DNA of 64,000 nt, from the NCBI RefSeq assembly GCF_019923725.1, contig NZ_JAHXRI010000007.1, positions 62,001 through 126,000 on the forward strand. The letters run 5' to 3'. The DNA comes from Zwartia hollandica. Its GTDB lineage: Bacteria > Pseudomonadota > Gammaproteobacteria > Burkholderiales > Burkholderiaceae_B. The notes below the pieces were generated by a model. The model saw only the letters and a list, made by a program, of their open reading frames with translations, was not told where the DNA came from and searched no databases. Position numbers and translations under genes: made by a program. Shown piece by piece: positions 40,689 through 51,692 of the stretch (position 1 is the first letter of the stretch; every line of letters begins with the position of its first letter).

Positions 40689-42989
40689 TTAGTCCGGCAA
40701 CTTCAGTACATGCTTAGCCAGAATTTCTTTCTGCACTTCTGTGCTGCCACCATAAATCGTGGAGGGTATTGAGTTCAGCATAATCGCTGGCACATTTAAT
40801 CCAGCAGGAGACAACTCGGTATTAAAGCCCGAGGCGCCATGCTCCTGCGCATACTCGACCATCAGCGCGCAAATTCGTTGATAAGTATCTGTACCCCAGA
40901 TTTTCAGCAGAGAAACACTAGGGGGCAACACATCTCCGCGCTTCACCATCTCGGCATAATGTGTATAGCCTGACACCTGATCAGCAACATCCAGCATTAA
41001 TTCGGCATAGCGCGAAACAAAAACGGCATCGGAGAAAAGCTCCAGATGTTCAGCCATGGCTGTGAGTTGACTCATCGCGTAGCGTGACTGTTTCGGGCTG
41101 CCGAGAAAAATCCTTTCAAAGCCCAAAAGCGTCTTGGCAATGGTCCAGCCTTGGTTTAACTCTCCTACAAGGTTATCGACAGGCACGCGAACATTATCGA
41201 AAAAAACCTCGCAAAACTCTTCATAACCCACAATGTCTTTAATCGGTCTGATCGTAATCCCAGGCGTCGCTAAATCAATCAACAAAAAACTAATACCCGC
41301 TTGTTTTTTTGCTTCTTTATCCGTACGCACCAGAGCGAACATATGCGTGGCATCTTGCGCCAAGGTCGTCCAGATTTTCTGACCGTTCACGACAAACACA
41401 TCACCATCTTGAACCGCCTCAGTCCGCAGTGAAGCCAAGTCAGAGCCAGCACCAGGCTCCGAATAACCTTGACACCAGATGTGCTCTCCAGCAATGATTT
41501 TCGGCAGAAATTTCTGTTGTTGTGCCGCACTCCCGCGCTGTATTAAGAGCGGACCAATCATGACAACCCCCATATCCGGCGCACGTGCTACCCCGTACTG
41601 TTCCTGCTCTTCCACATACGCAATCATCTTTTCTGGCGACAGACCCATTCCTCCAAAATGCTTGGGCCACGCTGGGGCGACCCAACCTTGACGCGACAAC
41701 GTCATATACCAATCTTTGATCTCATGCCAGTGCAGACGACGTGGGACGTTGCGCAAAGTCTCGGGGTAGTTTGTTGAATAGAAGCTGCGTAGCATCTGAC
41801 GAAAATCTTTTTCTGACATCGCGTCCCAGTCGGCCTGCGACGGAAACTCTGTTGTTGTAACTTGTGCGGTCGTCGAGGACTCGGGTGCAGTCTGTTGAAA
41901 GAAGCGCATACGATGTCCATTTAAATTTCCAAGCTGCGCAGACAGTTTGAGCGTTCGCTTGTAATACAAGCCAATATCGCACTCATCTGTAAAACCCATC
42001 GCGCCATGGAACTGAATCGCCATCCGGGTCACTAACAACGCGGCGTAAACAGTACGAGACTTTGCTCTGCTTGCTAAAGCAGAAAGCGCCCCACCCAGCT
42101 CTATTTGAGTAAGGACATCCTCAACACAAGAGGCGGACAACTCGACTTGAATATATGCATCGACTGCGCGATGCTTAAGCGCCTGAAAACTGCCTATCGC
42201 TTGGCCAAACTGTTTGCGGGTTCCAAGATAGTCGATTGTCTGACTCAACGCCTTTCTCATCACGCCCAGTAGTTCAGCGGACTGTATGACGCGCGCTCGA
42301 TCGTTTGCAACATCGACAAGAGCAAGCGCATCCTTACCTCGCAACAAAACATTGTCTGTGGGCACAGCGACATTCATTAGCTTCAAGGTACAGGTGGGTA
42401 GACCATCCGCCCCGCGGAGCTCTTCACACACAAGTCCCCTCGAATCAGAAGGCACCCACACAAGTACAGGCTCAGACTGCTGCATCGCCAAGACAATCCA
42501 GCCATCTGCTCCATTCGACGGGCTGACAAAAGACTTATTTCCCGACAGGCAAAGCATGTCGTTCTGCACGACACTCTTCGCTGTGAGCACTTCTAGCGCT
42601 TGCATCTGCCCTAGTTTCTCTTGCCAAGCGAGTCCGGCCACACAAGAGCCACTCACTAGCTGCTCGAGCAACTGACTGCGCAAGGCGCTCGGCGGTACTC
42701 CCATCAAAACGGTAGCAACCTGCACTGCACCAGCGATATAAGGCTCGGGTAACAGCGCCTGACCAACCTCTTGCGCGATCGCAGACATTTCCCGCAAGCC
42801 TAATCCGAGTCCGCCCTCGTCCTCAGAAACCAAAATGCCCAGCCACCCAGCATTGGCGAGCTCTTGCCATGCCACACGATCAAACCCGACATCCGCGTCG
42901 CGTAAACGGCGCAAGCGCTCAATCGCCCCATTGCGACTTAACAAGTCACGCGCGCTGTCACTAAATGCCTGCATCGCCGTAGCACTCAT
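40689..42989 (-). CDS. Two-domain acyl-CoA dehydrogenase fusion
   Basis: The 766-residue protein joins two acyl-CoA dehydrogenase domains (about 1-365 and 385-766). The N-terminal half keeps flavin-contact motifs TRKQFGQAIG (R258) and QFHGAMGF (326-333), but has Asp (D230, VANDRARV) where a catalytic glutamate could be. The C-terminal half has GYSEPGAGSDL (508-518) and the isovaleryl-type catalytic glutamate in LLGFERIF (E625), and reads YGGST where the medium-chain type has YEGT. One active site shared by two complementary halves is therefore likely, as in heteromeric FadE pairs of actinobacteria. An ATG start at 42989 fits. Confidence 0.9.
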   Translation of the reverse strand: MSATAMQAFSDSARDLLSRNGAIERLRRLRDADVGFDRVAWQELANAGWLGILVSEDEGGLGLGLREMSAIAQEVGQALLPEPYIAGAVQVATVLMGVPPSALRSQLLEQLVSGSCVAGLAWQEKLGQMQALEVLTAKSVVQNDMLCLSGNKSFVSPSNGADGWIVLAMQQSEPVLVWVPSDSRGLVCEELRGADGLPTCTLKLMNVAVPTDNVLLRGKDALALVDVANDRARVIQSAELLGVMRKALSQTIDYLGTRKQFGQAIGSFQALKHRAVDAYIQVELSASCVEDVLTQIELGGALSALASRAKSRTVYAALLVTRMAIQFHGAMGFTDECDIGLYYKRTLKLSAQLGNLNGHRMRFFQQTAPESSTTAQVTTTEFPSQADWDAMSEKDFRQMLRSFYSTNYPETLRNVPRRLHWHEIKDWYMTLSRQGWVAPAWPKHFGGMGLSPEKMIAYVEEQEQYGVARAPDMGVVMIGPLLIQRGSAAQQQKFLPKIIAGEHIWCQGYSEPGAGSDLASLRTEAVQDGDVFVVNGQKIWTTLAQDATHMFALVRTDKEAKKQAGISFLLIDLATPGITIRPIKDIVGYEEFCEVFFDNVRVPVDNLVGELNQGWTIAKTLLGFERIFLGSPKQSRYAMSQLTAMAEHLELFSDAVFVSRYAELMLDVADQVSGYTHYAEMVKRGDVLPPSVSLLKIWGTDTYQRICALMVEYAQEHGASGFNTELSPAGLNVPAIMLNSIPSTIYGGSTEVQKEILAKHVLKLPD

Positions 42990-43863: not shown

Positions 43864-44757
43864 TTAACGGTCGAAGCGTTTTTCCCACGCTTCAATCTCA
43901 TCGATGCCTAGCGCCGCGTTGTACTGGGCGGAGTTAAACATCTGCCCAGAAAAACCCTGCATATTTCCCTCTTTGGACAAATGGCCCAAGGCTGCAGTCA
44001 TTGCAAAACCAAAAGCACCTCGAGCCATTGCGGGATAAATACCAAGGTCAATTCCGGCAGCTTTCATCATCTCAAACGATAGCCCTGCTAAAGCACCACC
44101 GCTATCCATATTCACGACAACAGGAACACGCACCGCCGCCTTGATTGCTGCGATGTCTTCCATGAGCGAGGGGCTCGCCTTGAGCTCAACAAATACAGCA
44201 TCAGCGCCCTCTTGTTCGAAAGCGCGTGCCCTGCGAATCGCTTCCGATAAACCAAGCGCCCCTGCAGAATCGGTACGCGCGATCAAAACAAACTCGGGAT
44301 CAGAGCGTGCGGCACTGGCCGCAGCGATTTTTGATACCGCTTCATCGAACTCCAAGACGGAACGATCACCAGGCATTTGCGCACAACGCTTAGGCGAAAT
44401 CTGATCTTCCATATGAATGGCAGCGACACCAGCCGCTTCGAACTCAGCAATTGTGCGTCGAACGTTTACCACATTACCGTAACCGGTGTCCGCATCGCAA
44501 ATGAGCGGAATACTCACAGACCCCGAAACACGACGTGCGTGATCTGTCATCAGCGTCAAGTCGATTAAGCCGACATCTGGACGCCCGAGCAGGCTCGCGG
44601 ATACACCGTTCCCCGTCATATAGACCGCCGAAAAACCAGCCTGCTCCACCAGTCGTGCACCGTAGCCGTCATAAATCCCGGGCGCACGCACGGCCTGAGC
44701 TCTCGTTAACAGTTCACGCAAAGCACGGCGCTTTTGCGTTGCAGTTACAGTTGTCAT
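43864..44757 (-). CDS. Isocitrate lyase/PEP mutase family lyase (2,3-dimethylmalate-lyase-like)
   Basis: A beta-barrel carbon-carbon lyase of 297 residues. The metal-binding stretch is CDADTGYGN, and the loop SPKRCAQMPG keeps the catalytic cysteine (C125) that separates true lyases from PEP mutases and oxaloacetate decarboxylases. Such lyases split substituted malates or (methyl)isocitrate into a 2-oxo acid and a carboxylate. The ATG at 44757 follows GGAAG and overlaps the stop of the aconitase-type small subunit (ATGA). That pairing recalls the dimethylmaleate hydratase-dimethylmalate lyase set of nicotinate fermenters. The exact substrate is inferred. Confidence 0.82.
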   Translation of the reverse strand: MTTVTATQKRRALRELLTRAQAVRAPGIYDGYGARLVEQAGFSAVYMTGNGVSASLLGRPDVGLIDLTLMTDHARRVSGSVSIPLICDADTGYGNVVNVRRTIAEFEAAGVAAIHMEDQISPKRCAQMPGDRSVLEFDEAVSKIAAASAARSDPEFVLIARTDSAGALGLSEAIRRARAFEQEGADAVFVELKASPSLMEDIAAIKAAVRVPVVVNMDSGGALAGLSFEMMKAAGIDLGIYPAMARGAFGFAMTAALGHLSKEGNMQGFSGQMFNSAQYNAALGIDEIEAWEKRFDR

Positions 44758-45272
44758 GCAAACTTCCAATCAGGGTATTTTTTTAGAAAAGGAATGAGAC
44801 CACCTAACGACAAAATCGCCAGGATCTCCGATGGCAAGCGATGCGCCTGCTGTATGCGTTGACCTGCAGCGATAAGCTCGCCGGTCCCAAAATCAATGTT
44901 GATGGTTTGACCAGCAAGGATCTGATCTGTGTCGCACTCAAAGACTGGCAAGCCATTATTGATCGCGTTACGAAAAAACTGTCTGCCGAAAGATTTGGCA
45001 ACAACCGCTCGAATTTTCATTGCATGCAATACATGCGTAGCCTGCTCCCGCGACGAATTGATTCCAAAATGGTGGCCCGCCACCAAAATACCGCCTCCGT
45101 TTGCACCCACATGAGCGGCAAGCTCAGGCGAAAGTTGCTCAAAGGCGTGCTGCGCAACATAAGCAGCATCCTTTCCTGGCAAGTACTTATTGGAACAATG
45201 TATGTCTGTATTGACATCATTGCCTAAAACAAAACCAAGCCCTGACACCTGTAATGTATGCGTGGCCATCAT
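44754..45272 (-). CDS. Aconitase/LeuD-type small subunit
   Basis: The swivel-domain subunit of a 3-isopropylmalate-dehydratase-like hydro-lyase. The 172-residue protein has the anion-binding motif GINSSREQA (GSGSSREHA in LeuD) and FGRQFFRNAINNGLPV. ATG 45272 is preceded by GGAGG at good spacing; an earlier ATG at 45287 and a later one at 45269 are possible. It overlaps the stop of the large subunit and the start of the lyase gene. No leuB is adjacent, which argues against leucine synthesis. Confidence 0.85.
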   Translation of the reverse strand: MMATHTLQVSGLGFVLGNDVNTDIHCSNKYLPGKDAAYVAQHAFEQLSPELAAHVGANGGGILVAGHHFGINSSREQATHVLHAMKIRAVVAKSFGRQFFRNAINNGLPVFECDTDQILAGQTINIDFGTGELIAAGQRIQQAHRLPSEILAILSLGGLIPFLKKYPDWKFA

Positions 45273-46552
45273 GCAACGGCCCTCCATGTTCCGCCCACCA
45301 CATCACGCGGATCGGTGATGTAGCCAGTCAAGGCTGAGGCGGCAACGGTTGCGGCGGACCCCAACCAGATATCCGCATTCTTGTTACTCAACCGCCCCTT
45401 GAAGTTTCTGTTTGCTGTCGAGATAACGGTATCGCCATCGCCGGGAACCAGACGGTTCGTAATACCTACACAGGTACCGCAGCCTGCGGACTCAAAAGAG
45501 GCACCCGCCGTGGTCAGAACCTCAATGAGCCCCTCTCTTAGCGCGGCTAGGTATATTTGACGTGAGGCCGGAGTCACAATCATTCGCACGCCAGCGGCCA
45601 ACTTCTTTCCCTTCAAGATGGACGCAGCCTGACGAATGTCGTCTAAGCGACCATTCGTGCAGGTACCGATCAACGCAAACTGAATTTTTTGACCCACAAC
45701 CTCTGTGATGGCAACAATATCATCCACCTCATGTTTACGCGCGAGCTGCGGCGCTAAGCCAGAGACATCGAAATCAATTTGTTCAAGATACTGAGCGTCT
45801 GCATCAGCAAAAACGGGGGACGGCTCTTTTGCGCCGTGCGCTCGCAGCCATGCAAACGTTTTCTCGTCCGCCTCAAGAATAGCGGCCATTGCACCAAGCT
45901 CAGCGGCGTGGTTGCAAAGTGTCATGCGATCGTCGATATCCATTGCAGCGACAGCTTCTCCGACATATTCAATGGCAATATCGTTCAGACCCTCGGCACC
46001 AAAGCGCCCCAACATCGCGAGCGTGATGTCCTTAGCCCAGACGCCGGGTGCCAGGCGACCGCGCAAATTGATTCGAACCGTGTGGGGTACACGAAACCAA
46101 AGCTTGCTACTCATCATCACGGCCGATACATCCGTCCCTTCAATGCCCGTTCCTAGAGCATTGAAAGCTCCGTAGGTCACAGAGTGTGTGTCGGTGCCAA
46201 CGACGAGATCCCCACAAGTCAAATGCCCGCCTTCGGGCAACACTTGATGGCAGATACCGTCGCCGATGTCATAAAGTTTGGTGCCACGCTCAGCGGCAAA
46301 GTTGCGCATTTCACTGTGGATTTGCGCGGCCTCCAAGCTCGGAGGTGGCGAGTAGTGATCAAGCACTAGTGCAGTATTTTTTGCGAACTGCAACGGCTGG
46401 TCGCCGAACTTGTCGATCATTTTGATGGTGTTGACTGCACGCGTGTCCGTCACCATCGCAAAATCGATATTTGCAACGACAACCTCGCCTGCGCTGACGC
46501 GATCGCGTCCCGCATGCTTGGCTAAAATCTTTTCAACAATCGTAGAGGGCAT
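45269..46552 (-). CDS. Aconitase/LeuC-type large subunit (hydro-lyase)
   Basis: Iron-sulfur hydro-lyase subunit of 427 residues. The three cluster cysteines are C298 (IGTCTNGR), C358 and C361 (GCGTCVG), with the substrate-binding GTDTHSVTYGAFNALGTGIEG (119-139). It would isomerise a hydroxy-acid through an unsaturated acid, or hydrate an unsaturated diacid. It is shorter than LeuC of leucine synthesis (about 465) and closer to the HacA/DmdA-type branch. It is five bases after the Bug receptor gene and overlaps the small subunit. Confidence 0.87.
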   Translation of the reverse strand: MPSTIVEKILAKHAGRDRVSAGEVVVANIDFAMVTDTRAVNTIKMIDKFGDQPLQFAKNTALVLDHYSPPPSLEAAQIHSEMRNFAAERGTKLYDIGDGICHQVLPEGGHLTCGDLVVGTDTHSVTYGAFNALGTGIEGTDVSAVMMSSKLWFRVPHTVRINLRGRLAPGVWAKDITLAMLGRFGAEGLNDIAIEYVGEAVAAMDIDDRMTLCNHAAELGAMAAILEADEKTFAWLRAHGAKEPSPVFADADAQYLEQIDFDVSGLAPQLARKHEVDDIVAITEVVGQKIQFALIGTCTNGRLDDIRQAASILKGKKLAAGVRMIVTPASRQIYLAALREGLIEVLTTAGASFESAGCGTCVGITNRLVPGDGDTVISTANRNFKGRLSNKNADIWLGSAATVAASALTGYITDPRDVVGGTWRAVA

Positions 46553-46557
46553 GATCT

Positions 46558-47544
46558 TTAACGCTTAAGTTTGAGCTTGCGCACCACGTCACCCCAAGTC
46601 TCGTATTCCTTTTCAACGAACGCGCGCATCTCCTGTGGTGTCGAGGGATCAGGCTCCATCGCAGAGGTCTCTAAGCGCTCAATAGTCTTAGGGTCACGCA
46701 GAGCGGCCACCAAAGCCTCATTGAGTTTCTGAACGATTGCATCAGGTGTTCGTGCCGGTGCCACGAAGCTGTACCAGTTCGTCGCTTGATACCCAGGGAA
46801 ACCAAGCTCAGCGATGGTGGGTACATCAGGCAAGGCCTGTGCACGTTGCGCGCCCGTCACAGCAATCGCACGTATCTTGCCTCCCTTGATTTGGGGAATT
46901 GCTGTCGGAGCGCTTGCGAAAATAGCTTGGATATCACCAGCCAATAACGCCGTCATCGCCGGGCCACCACCTTTGTAATTAATATGCTCTGCGGAAGTTC
47001 CAGTACGCGCCTGCAACAACTCACCCGCAAGGTGACCGGCACTGCCTAAGCCTGGCGAGCCATAAAACAAAGGTTTATCTTTGTTCTTGGCTGCCGCGAT
47101 GTAATCAGCCAAGGTTTTTATATTCGAGTCAGCTCGCACGACGAGAATATTCCCGAAGGTCACGCCATTACTAATCATGGCAAAATCTTTGAGCGTTTTA
47201 TAGGGTGTGCCATCAGGCATGTGGGGGTTGACCGCCAAGGATCCGATGTTCGCCAACCCAATTGTGTACCCATCTGGTGCAGCATTCGCGACTGCATCGG
47301 CGGCGATATTACCGCCTGCGCCTGGCCTGTTGTCGACCACCACACTTTGTCCAATCAACTCCGACAGCTTGACCGCGACTGTACGGGCTGCCGAATCCGT
47401 TCCACCGCCAGGGGCGAAGCCAACCAGCAAGCGGATTGTTTTGGCCGGATAGGCGGGCGCAGCGGCTCCCTGGGCATGACTCGAGGCTGCACTACCCAGG
47501 CATATTGCCACCAAGCTAGCTTGGACAATTTTCGTTAAGTTCAT
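46558..47544 (-). CDS. Bug-family periplasmic solute-binding protein
   Basis: A tripartite-tricarboxylate-type (TctC/Bug) receptor that binds small carboxylates in the periplasm. The 328-residue protein has a signal peptide (about 1-25, ending SSHA), then the family start YPAKTIRLLVGFAPGGGTDSAAR and the ligand-loop region VVDNRPGAGGN. It is the first gene of the operon with the aconitase-type subunits and the lyase, so its ligand is probably their substrate. No TctAB membrane genes are near, as is usual for Bug proteins. Confidence 0.93.
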   Translation of the reverse strand: MNLTKIVQASLVAICLGSAASSHAQGAAAPAYPAKTIRLLVGFAPGGGTDSAARTVAVKLSELIGQSVVVDNRPGAGGNIAADAVANAAPDGYTIGLANIGSLAVNPHMPDGTPYKTLKDFAMISNGVTFGNILVVRADSNIKTLADYIAAAKNKDKPLFYGSPGLGSAGHLAGELLQARTGTSAEHINYKGGGPAMTALLAGDIQAIFASAPTAIPQIKGGKIRAIAVTGAQRAQALPDVPTIAELGFPGYQATNWYSFVAPARTPDAIVQKLNEALVAALRDPKTIERLETSAMEPDPSTPQEMRAFVEKEYETWGDVVRKLKLKR

Positions 47545-47734: not shown

Positions 47735-48613
47735 ATGCGAAGCAAACTTTTTGTGCCTGGTTCGCGACCAGAGCTTTTTGATAAAGCGTTAGCCAGTGCC
47801 GCAGACGCTCTGTCTTTTGATCTTGAGGATGCGGTCGCCGAGTCAAAAAAGGAGTCGGCTCGCATGACGCTTGCAGGCTGGATGGCGTCCCCGTCCGCCA
47901 TAGAAACGAACAAATGCGTCATTGTGCGTGTCAACGCGATGGACACTCGTTTTTTTGAACAAGATATTGCCGAAGTAGTCAGAGCCGGTCTTGACATGAT
48001 TAATATTCCAAAGCCGGAGAATGCTGAGGCAGTGCGGCAAGCAGTTGGCATGATCGAAGCTGCCGAGCGCAAAAACGGCGTTAACGCGAACGGACTGACG
48101 CCAATTAAAGTACTGCTCAATGTCGAGACGCCTAAAGCACTGCGTACCGCTTTTGAGCTTGCAAGCGCACACCCGCGCGTGGCGGGACTTCAGCTAGGGC
48201 TCGCAGACTTATTCGAGCCCATCGCCGTCTCTCGCAAAGAACTCTTTGCAGTGCAATATGCCATGATGGAAATGAAGATGGCTGCGGCCGAAGCCGGTGT
48301 CGCGGCATTTGATGCGGCTTATGCCGACATCAAGAATACCGAGGGCTTCAAACACGAAGCAGGCTTTGCTGCCAGCCTGGGCTATACAGGCAAGACATGC
48401 ATTCATCCCAGCCAAGTCGTGATGGCCAATGACGCCTTCAGACCTAGCGACGAAGCAATCGCACACGCGCTGCGTATCTTAGATGCGGCTGCCCAAGCGG
48501 AGGCTGAGGGTGTTGGCGCCTATGTCGTAGACGGCAAAATGATTGACCCACCCTTTTTAAGAAGTGCCCAAGCGCTCGTGGCCAACGCCAAGAGCATGGG
48601 TCTGATTCCCTGA
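47735..48613 (+). CDS. CitE-like CoA-ester lyase (HpcH/HpaI superfamily)
   Basis: Barrel-fold lyase related to the citrate lyase beta subunit, malyl-CoA lyase and citramalyl-CoA lyase. From ATG 47735 it has about 292 residues; a TTG at 47708 in frame would add nine, but lies very close to the predicted transcript start. Motifs are KLFVPGSRPE, DALSFDLEDAVAESKK with the metal-binding Glu and Asp, and KTCIHPSQV. With the CoA-transferase three genes later it could cleave a hydroxyacyl-CoA to acetyl-CoA or a similar product plus a 2-oxo acid. Confidence 0.87.
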   Translation: MRSKLFVPGSRPELFDKALASAADALSFDLEDAVAESKKESARMTLAGWMASPSAIETNKCVIVRVNAMDTRFFEQDIAEVVRAGLDMINIPKPENAEAVRQAVGMIEAAERKNGVNANGLTPIKVLLNVETPKALRTAFELASAHPRVAGLQLGLADLFEPIAVSRKELFAVQYAMMEMKMAAAEAGVAAFDAAYADIKNTEGFKHEAGFAASLGYTGKTCIHPSQVVMANDAFRPSDEAIAHALRILDAAAQAEAEGVGAYVVDGKMIDPPFLRSAQALVANAKSMGLIP

Positions 48614-48645
48614 CACGCCTGACCTCCCCTAAAAGGAATTAATCT

Positions 48646-49623
48646 ATGTTTACCTTAACCAACTGTATGCGCGTCATCACTGGTTTCGTGCTCTGCGCAA
48701 CACTCGCAACGGTTCATGCCCAAACGGACTTTCCAAATAAGCCGATCACGCTACTCGTCGGAAGTGCCCCAGGTGGATCAAACGACATCTTTGCGCGCGC
48801 CATTGGTAAGCAGCTGCAGGAAACTCTTGGTGTATCGGTTGTTGTCGACAACAAGCCTGCAGCGGGCGGCATTTTAGCCAACGTCTTGCTGGCCAAAGCA
48901 CCTGCTGACGGCTACACCTTAGTCGTGCTGTCCTCCACATTTACGACAGGTGCAGCGGTACGAAAGAATCTGCAGTATGACGCGATTAAAAGCTTTACAC
49001 CGATTGCAATGCTCGCGAAAGGTCCGATGCTTATCACGGTTGGTAACAACACGCCTTTCAAAACAATCGAGGATCTCGTTTCGTTTGCCAAGGCAAACCC
49101 TGGCAAGCTCAACTACGGAACCTCGGGCGTCGGTAGCATTAACCAGTTTGCCTCGGAACTGCTGTCAGAGGCTGCCAACATAAAAATGACGCACGTTCCC
49201 TACAAGGGGATGGGACCTGCCGTGACAGACTTACTAAGCGGGCAAATCGATATGATTATCGCGAGCGCACCCTCATTACTCTCACAAGTCAAGAACGATA
49301 AGATTCGTGCCCTTGCCGTCACGACTGTAGATCGCTCTGAAGTCGCACCTGAGATTCGCGGACTAAAAGAAGCTGGCTTTCCTAAGGCTGCAGTCGATCT
49401 CTGGTGGGGCGTTCTGGCTCCTGCCGGCACACCTAAGCCCGTTGTCGAAAAGCTCAACAAGTCTATCAATCAGATCATTACATCCGAGGCAATGAAATCC
49501 TTTTTCGTCAAAGAAGGTGCCTCACCAGTTGCCATGACTGCAGAAGCCTTTGGGAATCACTTAGTCAACGAACTCGATCGCTGGAAAGCGATTGCCCTGA
49601 ACGCTAACATTCAAGCGGACTAA
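48646..49623 (+). CDS. Bug-family periplasmic solute-binding protein
   Basis: A second Bug/TctC receptor of 325 residues with a signal peptide ending in TVHA (about residue 25), then FPNKPITLLVGSAPGGSNDIFAR and VVDNKPAAGGI. AAAGGAATT precedes the ATG well. It lies 32 bases after the CitE-like gene and nine before the CoA-transferase, so it probably imports or senses the substrate of that route. It is clearly diverged from the Bug protein across the intergenic region, so the two probably bind different ligands. Confidence 0.93.
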   Translation: MFTLTNCMRVITGFVLCATLATVHAQTDFPNKPITLLVGSAPGGSNDIFARAIGKQLQETLGVSVVVDNKPAAGGILANVLLAKAPADGYTLVVLSSTFTTGAAVRKNLQYDAIKSFTPIAMLAKGPMLITVGNNTPFKTIEDLVSFAKANPGKLNYGTSGVGSINQFASELLSEAANIKMTHVPYKGMGPAVTDLLSGQIDMIIASAPSLLSQVKNDKIRALAVTTVDRSEVAPEIRGLKEAGFPKAAVDLWWGVLAPAGTPKPVVEKLNKSINQIITSEAMKSFFVKEGASPVAMTAEAFGNHLVNELDRWKAIALNANIQAD

Positions 49624-49632
49624 GCGCAGCAT

Positions 49633-50835
49633 ATGAGCACTCAAGCACCACACTCTTTTTCTGAACTGCCTAATCGCAGCGGCTCTCTGGGACCACTGAG
49701 CGGCGTGCGTGTCGTCGACATGTCTGCGTATATTGCTGGTCCTTACGCCTGCTCCCTTCTGGCTGATCAGGGCGCAGAAATTGTCAAGATAGAGCCTCCC
49801 TCTGGCGACAACCTCAGGAAATACCCATCAACGCTCGAAGCGGAAAGTCGAGCGTTTTTAGGTGTCAATCGCAGCAAACTATCCGCCGTGCTCGACGTGA
49901 AACATCCTGATGATCTCGCAACATTGCTCACGCTTATCGAGAGCGCCGATGTACTGGTGCATAACTTTCGGCCGACCGTCGCCCCTCGCATTGGGATCGG
50001 TTACGAACAACTCAAGGCCTTAAATCCGAGACTCATTTATTGCACAGTCAGTGGCTATGGTGAAACGGGCCCCCTGAAAGACAAGGCGGGCTTTGATCAG
50101 GTATTACAGACCATGACGGGCATGTGTACCCTACAAGGAAAAAAGGACGGTCCCCCAGAAATCCTTTACGGATCCATTGTCGACTACTACGCCTCGGCTC
50201 TGGTCGCGGGCGCCGTGTCTTCGGCGCTCTTCGAGCGAGAGCGTTCTGGGCAAGGGCAGTTTGTCAGTGTGTCGCTACTATCAGCTGCCATGACACTCCA
50301 ATCCGCTCGCCTAATCTGGGCTGAAAATGAAGGCCGTGACGTGGGTCGCGATATGCGCTCTGGCGGCATCACTGGTCTGCATCCCACAAAAGATGGTTAC
50401 TTATACATCTCAGCCAACACGCCCCATTTCTGGATCGCGTTATGCAAAAAGCTGGGATTAGACGATCTAGGTGTAGACGAGCGTTACGACACGGTTCGTA
50501 AACGCGCGGCGCATCAAGCAGAAATTGTACCCATCATCCACCGCGCGCTTAGTAGTAAATCAGCGTTGGAATGGGAAGCTATTTTTGGTGAAGAGGTTCC
50601 TTGTTCGGCGGCCAGAAGCGTTGAAGATATGTTTGAGCACCCACAGGTGCAAAGTCAGGACATGATCACAACGTTTGACCATCCGGTTGTTGGGCGGTAC
50701 CGCGGCTTGAAGCGATCGCTTCGCTTTAGTCGCACTCCAGGGCCGGAACCGTTTGCAGCCCCGACGCTTGGCCAGCACACCGATCTTGTACGCAACGAAG
50801 CAAAACGTTTACGACTCAAAGCTTCAAAAAAATGA
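49633..50835 (+). CDS. CaiB/BaiF family III CoA-transferase
   Basis: Transfers CoA between carboxylic acids without a covalent CoA-thioester intermediate on Glu; the catalytic residue is Asp. The 400-residue protein has the family start GPLSGVRVVDMSAYIAGPYACSLLADQGAEIVKIEPPSGD and the catalytic aspartate in AGFDQVLQTM (D155). In this operon it would activate the imported acid, giving the substrate for the CitE-like lyase, as in itaconate degradation. A (succinyl-CoA or acetyl-CoA) donor is not predictable. Confidence 0.92.
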   Translation: MSTQAPHSFSELPNRSGSLGPLSGVRVVDMSAYIAGPYACSLLADQGAEIVKIEPPSGDNLRKYPSTLEAESRAFLGVNRSKLSAVLDVKHPDDLATLLTLIESADVLVHNFRPTVAPRIGIGYEQLKALNPRLIYCTVSGYGETGPLKDKAGFDQVLQTMTGMCTLQGKKDGPPEILYGSIVDYYASALVAGAVSSALFERERSGQGQFVSVSLLSAAMTLQSARLIWAENEGRDVGRDMRSGGITGLHPTKDGYLYISANTPHFWIALCKKLGLDDLGVDERYDTVRKRAAHQAEIVPIIHRALSSKSALEWEAIFGEEVPCSAARSVEDMFEHPQVQSQDMITTFDHPVVGRYRGLKRSLRFSRTPGPEPFAAPTLGQHTDLVRNEAKRLRLKASKK

Positions 50836-51692
50836 TGATCCCAAACACGGCAGGCATCGCTGCGCCCACCTTGCGCTTGCCAGCTGGTGCTTGCGACTCT
50901 CACCTCCATATCTACGACGCTCGGTTTCCGACCGCAGTAGATGCAGCGCATTCGTTGGACAAGGCGACTGTTAACGAGTACCGTCAACTTCAAAAAAGAC
51001 TCGGTACTACAAGGGCAATCATCGTGACGCCTCGAAGTTATGGCGTTGATAATCGCGTCACCGTCGACGCGATCGAGCAACTGGGCATACAGAACGCACG
51101 TGGTGTTGCCGTGCTCAGGACCGACACAACCGATGCACAAATACAGGAGTTAGACCGTGCTGGAATTCGCGGCATTCGTTTCTCTCTGTATACGCCCACC
51201 CACGCAGCCGCAAGCTTCGATATGGTCGAAGAGCTCTCACATCGCGTCGAACCCTTTGGATGGCACTTGCAACTCCACTGGACCGCCGACCAATTCGTAG
51301 CGCATGAAGCAATGCTCAAACGCTTACCCTCGCGCCTAGTCATCGATCACATGGCAAGACTGCCACAACCTGCAGGGGTCAATCACCCGGCTGTGCGCAT
51401 CATGAACGCGCTCCTTGAGCGTGGACGCACATGGGTAAAGCTCTCTGGCCCCTACCTCGACAGTCAGTTGGGTGAGCGCGGCCAATATCTTGACATCGAT
51501 GCCGTCCCTAGGCACTGGATCAAGATAGCGCCAGAGCGCTTGGTATGGGGCAGCGACTGGCCGCACCCGACAGAAGTCATCAAGCCTGACGATGCGCGGT
51601 TACTCGACCTGATGAGTCGCTGGACCGAGAGTGAGGCCGTCATCAAAAAAATATTCGTGACGAATCCTGCCGCACTCTACGGCTTTGACTAA
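50832..51692 (+). CDS. Amidohydrolase, 2-pyrone-4,6-dicarboxylate lactonase-like
   Basis: TIM-barrel hydrolase of the LigI-like branch. The 286-residue protein has the metal-type motif CDSHLHIYD (H24, H26), GIRGIRFSLY, a histidine-containing VIDHMARLPQP and the final aspartate in LVWGSDWPHPTE. The branch opens lactones such as 2-pyrone-4,6-dicarboxylate to the open-chain oxo-acid. The ATG overlaps the CoA-transferase stop (ATGA), making this the last gene of the operon. Opening of a cyclic form of the imported acid before CoA activation is the natural guess. Confidence 0.85.
   Translation: MMIPNTAGIAAPTLRLPAGACDSHLHIYDARFPTAVDAAHSLDKATVNEYRQLQKRLGTTRAIIVTPRSYGVDNRVTVDAIEQLGIQNARGVAVLRTDTTDAQIQELDRAGIRGIRFSLYTPTHAAASFDMVEELSHRVEPFGWHLQLHWTADQFVAHEAMLKRLPSRLVIDHMARLPQPAGVNHPAVRIMNALLERGRTWVKLSGPYLDSQLGERGQYLDIDAVPRHWIKIAPERLVWGSDWPHPTEVIKPDDARLLDLMSRWTESEAVIKKIFVTNPAALYGFD

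Follow-up and report, generated by a model that had tools for sequence, protein, structure and literature searches.

A conserved LeuCD-type hydro-lyase and PEP-mutase/isocitrate-lyase-type lyase pair, encoded with a Bug receptor in Zwartia hollandica, as a putative organic-acid catabolic unit

Aconitase-type enzymes act together with carbon-carbon lyases of the phosphoenolpyruvate mutase/isocitrate lyase (PEPM/ICL) superfamily in several described systems: aconitase with isocitrate lyase (ICL), AcnD or AcnB with PrpB in the 2-methylcitrate cycle, and DmdAB with Dml in nicotinate-fermenting Clostridia. The related isopropylmalate isomerase LeuCD and homoaconitase HacAB are heterodimeric [4Fe-4S] hydro-lyases. 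The Bug/TctC family of periplasmic receptors was first known for citrate uptake, and aspartate, glutamate, nicotinate, sulfolactate and terephthalate are named as later ligands in a section of PMC5812351. Here we analysed 64,000 nucleotides of Zwartia hollandica (contig NZ_JAHXRI010000007.1, positions 62,001 to 126,000; hereafter the window), in which a four-gene operon at 43864-47544 on the minus strand encodes a Bug receptor, a LeuCD-type pair and a PEPM/ICL-type lyase (Table 1). The original prediction, made from the sequence alone, had proposed a dimethylmalate- or citramalate-like catabolic operon. The pair of enzymes follows the same working logic as the three systems named first, but it represents a separate subfamily of both enzymes.

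All four proteins exceed the curated Pfam cut-off of their family (TctC, Aconitase, Aconitase_C and PEP_mutase, respectively). The lyase gene may start at a TTG (43864-44769) or, better, at an ATG that is preceded by GGAAG (43864-44757; 297 aa). The small-subunit frame opens at 45287 (44754-45287) and contains an inner ATG at 45272. With the inner starts, the lyase/small-subunit and small/large-subunit junctions are ATGA overlaps of 4 bases each, and 5 bases separate the Bug gene from the large-subunit gene, so the tight packing that had been predicted is borne out. The predicted catalytic residues were also located in the translations: cluster cysteines C298, C358 and C361 in the large subunit and C125 within KRCAQ in the lyase, numbered from the ATG at 44757. 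Matches to promoters and terminators were no commoner than in shuffled sequences (5 found versus 3.9 expected; 4 versus 5.5).

We then analysed the conservation of the operon. In a scan of named genome contigs, evaluated for the best 80 of 83 loci, 64 loci hold a large-subunit orthologue (LeuC at 60% identity or more). Where the contig leaves room, LeuD is found downstream of LeuC at no more than 3 kb (59 of 59 loci) and the lyase at no more than 4.5 kb (54 of 55); the contig of the sole exception, L072, ends about 2.9 kb past LeuC. The order LeuC-LeuD-lyase is likewise kept in 54 of 55 loci with room, which is more than chance. The lyase gene begins at most 700 bp past the end of LeuC in 38/55 loci, and a Bug gene is found on the same strand within 700 bp upstream of LeuC in 36 of the 57 loci with room. 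A search of 268 genomes of the window's family found 27, own genome included, that encode a large subunit at least 73% identical, counted among the matches listed. Within the plasmid collection, no relative at 60% or more appeared among 597 matching records, although that collection may omit records that are very close to the genome of the window. Carriers of the pair include, by record title, Polynucleobacter, Limnohabitans, Zwartia and Sheuella, which we take to be freshwater bacteria. Some labels of metagenome-assembled genome (MAG) contigs look doubtful (L040, L041, L079 and L109, titled Bordetella parapertussis, and L110, titled Thermoflexus), since the L110 lyase is almost identical to that of the betaproteobacterial MAG L051, and LeuC of L040 and L041 is 93-94% identical to that of the window.

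Deep relatives (L067-L082 and similar) carry a longer composite operon, not every gene of which is present in every locus. Its upstream part comprises BKACE, Bug, SDR and amidohydrolase genes. LeuD and the lyase are separated by an MR_MLE gene resembling muconate cycloisomerase and by a Bug gene; past the lyase come a flavin mononucleotide (FMN) dehydrogenase, another Bug and a gene of the isocitrate/isopropylmalate-dehydrogenase type, and PdxA and MmgE/PrpD genes are divergent. In four deep loci (L068, L070, L073 and L098) the gene that immediately precedes LeuC is AcnA. Of these, the copy in L098 passes TIGR01341 (1154.7 versus 945), and the other three are 67-68% identical to it.

The two hydro-lyase subunits have the features of a LeuCD-type heterodimer of the aconitase superfamily, namely PF00330, PF00694, the three cluster cysteines and the serine and arginine of SSRE. 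Among the NCBIfam models, the large subunit passed only subfamily models (PRK00402, hacA_fam and IPMI_arch, the last with 440.7 versus 410.15) and remained below the equivalog cut-offs of LEU2 (370.5 versus 610.65), leuC (218.5 versus 560.25) and HacA_Meth (376.5 versus 550). The small subunit passed only TIGR02087, the 'LeuD/DmdB family' (128.7 versus 108.95), and neither leud (95 versus 245.85) nor HacB_Meth (94.1 versus 230). The best solved sequence relative of the large subunit is the isopropylmalate/citramalate isomerase of M. jannaschii (353.6 bits). Unlike LeuCD and HacAB, the window pair thus misses the equivalog cut-offs, has no leuB-type partner adjacent to it in the window, and carries NHAAE and NSSRE in place of near-invariant motifs.

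In a large-subunit tree of 69 rows selected from the hits, the window clade (26 rows) obtained 100/100 support, and its sister group was formed by nine Desulfotomaculum-type proteins (100/95). Motifs were counted over distinct sequence strings rather than genomes, as the same genome can enter through two collections with different trimming. NHAAE occurs in 71/71 clade sequences and 0/51 others, 50 of which have N-[MLI]-x-x-E instead; DTHS is present in 69/71 versus 0/51. The small subunit of the window contains NTDxxCSxKYLPGKD and FGINSSRE. Its clade was defined by FGINSSRE itself, so that only the other motifs are independent of that definition: TDxxCS occurs in all 69 FGINSSRE-bearing sequences and in none of the 38 others, which all have GSSRE, and the loop Yx[PS]G[KR] is found in 64 of the 69.

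The lyase shows the hallmarks of the PEPM/ICL superfamily (PF13714, TIM-barrel fold, DxD Mg site, K(R/K)C cysteine) and falls below every NCBIfam equivalog cut-off (prpB 225.4 versus 354.4; isocit_lyase 51.6 versus 275.9). Only positions 150-243 of the 526 of the ICL profile match, which sets it apart from AceA. The motifs KRCGH for PrpB and KKCGH for ICL are given in a passage of PMC11982470; the window lyase has KRCAQ and is located outside a prp locus. Its solved sequence relatives include PrpB, petal death protein and fungal '2,3-dimethylmalate lyase' entries. An AlphaFold (AF2) model (predicted local distance difference test score 94.1, predicted template modelling score 0.91) had OAH and PrpB as top PDB matches (Z 36-37). 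Since OAH, PrpB, petal death protein, PEP mutase and 3fa3/3fa4 all match at Z of about 33-37, the fold alone cannot separate the candidate reactions.

For the lyase tree we used 64 of 98 rows, after removal of X-containing rows and of near-copies recognised by locus id. In it, the window clade (32 rows, 100/100) lies outside ten Dml rows and outside PrpB. Neither of the placements named as refuting the original prediction, the large subunit with LeuC or the lyase inside PrpB, was obtained. Constraining the lyase to one clade with Dml (p 0.31) or with PrpB (p 0.16) rejected neither sister relation. Besides KRCAQ, the window lyase is marked by GNGV and a VELK insert. The three-residue insert with a conserved lysine (Lys193) is present in 63/64 clade rows and is a gap in 34/34 others, and Arg246 occurs in all 61 readable clade rows versus 0/34 others. 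Of the 64 clade rows, 49 have Gln and 15 have His after KRCx, where all 34 other lyases have His. The catalytic cysteine and both DxD aspartates are kept in 98/98 rows. Because the catalytic residues are kept while the clade motifs are altered, the shells around a conserved chemistry have changed in all three proteins. Judged by tree and motifs, the lyase is a separate subfamily of PEPM/ICL lyases. The highest local identities outside the clade were those of the Candidimonas lyases L198 (47%) and L199 (45%), and not of Dml.

DmdAB and Dml likewise combine a LeuCD-type hydratase with a nearby PEPM/ICL-type lyase, and the catalytic motifs are the same. We obtained references by a PrpF-family (Mii-like) search of 398 genomes taken from the Desulforamulus phylum, which yielded 26 over the cut-off. 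At least 11 of the 27 neighbourhoods fetched show, by BLAST, length and order, a nicotinate-type cluster (L169, L170, L172, L173, L176, L178, L180, L181, L182, L186 and L188) with LeuC-like, lyase, PrpF, Hgd-sized and GlmL-sized genes and a gene for a protein of about 615 aa. This layout we take to be that of nicotinate fermentation. L180, the cluster scanned against NCBIfam, has profile support for Hgd-type, PrpF, GlmL, LeuCD and lyase proteins; its proteins of about 619, 389 and 504 aa matched no NCBIfam family at E 1e-40 and are presumably the B12 mutase, enamidase and hydroxynicotinate reductase. The Dmd/Dml rows are therefore assignments by gene neighbourhood, length and order, the characterised Eubacterium barkeri sequences not being among them; L185 was used too, despite no Hgd-sized gene having been seen next to it. 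The LeuC-like proteins in the DmdA position form two lineages, one of eight rows with L185 included (L172, L176, L178, L180, L182, L185, L186 and L188) and one of three (L169, L170 and L173), and since these are separate, the hydratase of nicotinate-type clusters may have been recruited twice.

A single clade of the window large subunit with the three-row lineage was strongly rejected (approximately unbiased (AU) test, p 1.5e-64), and one with the eight-row lineage only just, at a marginal AU p of 0.0495. The window motifs differ from those of Dmd/Dml as well as from those of LeuCD and PrpB. The small-subunit loop reads TDxxCSxKYLPGKD in the window versus IDTDAIIPARYLNT or VDTDQILPGYAMS in the Dmd references, and the lyase has NMDSGGALAG where Dml has NMVEGGRTPL, in addition to its insert. 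Among the proteins assigned by Pfam/NCBIfam at 39.8-51.7 kb, we found no nicotinate-pathway genes (Mgm, Mii, Hgd, Hnr or enamidase); in place of Mgm/Mii/Hgd-type neighbours, the operon has its Bug receptor. With the enzymes in other clades and with other specificity loops, membership in DmdAB/Dml, and with it the dimethylmalate assignment of the original prediction, is not supported, although a sister relation of the lyase to Dml was not rejected. The name dml is an unsafe guide, since a passage of PMC9804861 gives the name 'dml: 2,3-dimethylmalate lyase' to the lyase of a prpC-acnD-prpF cluster. By eye, L192-L194 hold a PrpB-like lyase, a fused aconitase-like protein and PrpF, and L192 also TctABC-like, CitE/HpcH-like and isocitrate-dehydrogenase-like genes; these clusters are possibly another tricarboxylate pathway.

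The sister LeuCD lineage (L097, L099, L101-L106 and L108) shares NTD in the small-subunit loop. It shows 47-51% identity and, in contrast to the window pair, keeps GSSRE and N-M-x-x-E; its partners are homocitrate-synthase-like and, where looked at, isocitrate-dehydrogenase-type genes, and no lyase. The order in L097, L101 and L105 is homocitrate-synthase-like gene, LeuC, LeuD, isocitrate-dehydrogenase-type gene. TIGR02660 is passed by the first gene of L097 (534.7 versus 462.9), and an isocitrate dehydrogenase cut-off is exceeded in L105 (654.4 versus 335) and barely in L097 (433.2 versus 432.4), L101 being unscored. Among six sister-type genomes searched, G268, G671, G673 and G674 each encode two large subunits of the aconitase family; the one outside the sister lineage sits in an ilv-leu operon in G268 and G673. 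In Heliomicrobium, as a passage of PMC12016533 has it, a gene annotated as homocitrate synthase was shown to be a Re-citrate synthase. On account of this misnaming, the gene order, the subunit counts and the ilv-leu placement, the sister LeuCD lineage is probably the aconitase of its hosts.

The genome of Z. hollandica itself bears on two further roles. It has an apparent leuC-leuD-leuB set (L120) and prpB-, prpC-, acnD- and prpF-type genes (L122), named by similarity, order and length, and the L122 PrpB groups with that of E. coli (100/100). As predicted, no leuB, prpC/D or methylcitrate gene was found among the proteins assigned at 39.8-51.7 kb. Since these apparent loci lie elsewhere and the equivalog cut-offs are missed (LeuC/LeuD in one case, prpB in the other), we rejected the leucine pathway and the methylcitrate cycle; both are unlikely roles for the operon, in agreement with the original argument. 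AcnD/AcnB with PrpB resemble the window pair in combining an aconitase-type enzyme with a KRC-motif lyase, but the window hydratase is a heterodimer.

Other LeuCD-type units were seen in the same genome. L121 (G000:C22, 7440-10338) is a second lyase-LeuC-LeuD unit with Bug genes; its LeuC is of a bacterial-type lineage, its lyase is 38% identical to that of the window, and by eye a maleate-isomerase-like gene is nearby. L119 (G000:C1, 4850-9054) combines a LeuCD-type pair with family III coenzyme A (CoA)-transferase and 3-hydroxy-3-methylglutaryl (HMG)-CoA-lyase-type genes (by eye), and a Haloferax gibbonsii plasmid (L137, 2826-6829) has a LeuCD-type pair with such genes as annotated; this arrangement looks like another catabolic LeuCD module. 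At L118 (G000:C1, 7798-11775) an archaeal-type LeuCD (37% to the window's) is followed, by eye, by methyltransferase-like and MmgE/PrpD-like genes.

A divergent operon at 47735-51692 on the plus strand, absent from the original prediction, adjoins the four genes (Table 1). A homologue of its CitE-like gene accompanies the trio in 11 of the 13 close loci that have room (LeuC at 83% or more; L043 and L047 lack the divergent operon), and at no locus in the more distant part of the clade. As necessary context this operon was rejected, for it does not travel with the trio. The core is thus LeuC-LeuD-lyase, usually with Bug, because the trio is conserved while the divergent operon drops out. A homologue (36%) of its amidohydrolase immediately precedes LeuC in three deep relatives (L072, L074 and L079). 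On the other side, a gene at 40689-42989 (minus strand) encodes a fused two-part enzyme of 766 aa with two acyl-CoA dehydrogenase halves; the best matches of the halves, below cut-off, are the pimD small and then the pimC large subunit.

Table 1. Genes of the four-gene operon and of the divergent operon, in window coordinates
Feature	Coordinates	Strand	Profile match
Bug/TctC-type periplasmic solute receptor (operon gene 1)	46558..47544	-	Pfam TctC (PF03401), 262.7 bits (cut-off 27)
LeuC/aconitase-type large subunit	45269..46552	-	Pfam Aconitase, 301.9 bits
LeuD/aconitase-type small subunit	44754..45272	-	Pfam Aconitase_C; TIGR02087
PEP-mutase/isocitrate-lyase-type C-C lyase	43864..44757	-	Pfam PEP_mutase, 156.4 bits
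CitE/HpcH-type lyase (first gene of divergent operon; associated, outside core trio)	47735..48613	+	HpcH_HpaI
Second Bug receptor	48646..49623	+	TctC
Family III CoA-transferase	49633..50835	+	CoA_transf_3, 386.8 bits; no equivalog cut-off passed
Amidohydrolase	50832..51692	+	Amidohydro_2

The four genes very likely serve to import and cleave an organic acid; the catabolic, Bug-fed logic of the original prediction is supported. We infer uptake, reaction direction and substrate as follows. Together they would break down a carboxylic acid from outside the cell, which the Bug protein would bind in the periplasm before uptake. The [4Fe-4S] enzyme would hydrate or isomerise the acid to a 2-hydroxy acid in which the carbon beside the hydroxyl group bears a carboxylate, and the lyase, with Mg2+ and Cys125, would split this in a retro-Claisen reaction to a carboxylate and glyoxylate or pyruvate. 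The aconitase-like sister lineage, the upstream AcnA genes and the basic residues new to the clade tilt the odds somewhat towards a substrate with a third negative group, such as an aconitate/isocitrate-like tricarboxylate or an analogue of one, and away from dimethylmalate or citramalate. The module as a whole, a Bug-fed hydratase/isomerase with a retro-Claisen lyase for a tricarboxylate-type substrate, we regard as evenly balanced between right and wrong. Several points weigh against it. The lyase lacks the MQTR arginine of the own-genome PrpB, which presumably serves the gamma-carboxylate, and this argues against isocitrate-like substrates. Pyrococcus LeuD (YNLTKD) shares the lysine of the small-subunit loop, which therefore need not bind a carboxylate. 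Other deep loci have amidohydrolase or other genes in the place of AcnA, which could be an unrelated neighbour. As for the sister lineage, its role is itself something we infer, two of its six genomes (G672 and G675) hold three or more aconitase-family large subunits, and it is separated from the window clade by a long branch (0.89) and by numerous changes in motifs.

Three other explanations have to be weighed against such a tricarboxylate-type module. In a dimethylmalate/citramalate-type pathway, LeuCD would hydrate a methylated maleate and the lyase would yield pyruvate with propionate or acetate. The gene logic of nicotinate-type clusters, a lyase that is 39-43% identical to their Dml versus 34-35% to the own PrpB, the unrejected Dml clade and the missing PrpB-type C-terminal arginine all speak for it; yet the large subunit falls outside both lineages of DmdA-position proteins, both specificity loops and the lyase insert differ, the closest outside lyases by local identity are those of Candidimonas, and no nicotinate genes are near, so we consider this pathway rather unlikely. 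An alternative entry to the glyoxylate shunt, with LeuCD as local aconitase and the lyase as isocitrate lyase of an organism without AceA, would fit the aconitase-like sister clade and the own genome (99.7% complete), which encodes malate synthase and six PEPM/ICL-type lyases, all of them short matches, with no full-length ICL match. We think it improbable, as the genome already has apparent AcnB and AcnD-type genes, an AceA-looking frame of 436-461 aa occurs in four of five related trio genomes (G269, G270, G271 and G273; not G272), the pocket motifs are unlike those of PrpB, and the tight linkage to a Bug receptor gene suggests a substrate taken up from outside. Equally doubtful is a maleate/citraconate hydratase like HbzIJ, which we take to be of LeuCD type, working with the lyase in a ring-cleavage or lactone acid pathway run by the divergent operon. 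The frequent presence of that operon in close loci points this way, as do the L135 CitE-like gene (48% to P0005) adjoining a different LeuC-like gene and a PrpB-like lyase, and the MR_MLE and amidohydrolase genes of deep operons, but in distant loci the CitE/CoA-transferase operon drops away while LeuCD and lyase stay.

Returning to the tricarboxylate-type module, we tentatively propose, at a little short of an even chance, that the LeuCD clade adds a new substrate class to the aconitase superfamily and has a rebuilt active-site shell (NHAAE, DTHS, NSSRE and TDxxCS). It would have been recruited from an aconitase-like lineage and joined to a new PEPM/ICL lyase subfamily, giving an undescribed betaproteobacterial pathway for an environmental polycarboxylate, probably tri-anionic. 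We found no description of the operon in the literature within reach, which excluded most subscription papers, on dimethylmaleate/dimethylmalate, maleate/citraconate and isopropylmalate-dehydratase-type enzymes. What we observed directly are gene order, families, conservation, phylogeny and motif changes. The combination of an aconitase-type with an ICL-type enzyme is of a known kind; new are the separate branches of both enzymes with altered active-site motifs. Such genes are easily named leuC, leuD, dimethylmalate lyase or methylisocitrate lyase and thereby misplaced in leucine or propionate metabolism, and the clade-specific motifs provide a test for such annotations. The conserved pair would offer a compact, assayable route from an organic acid into central metabolism.

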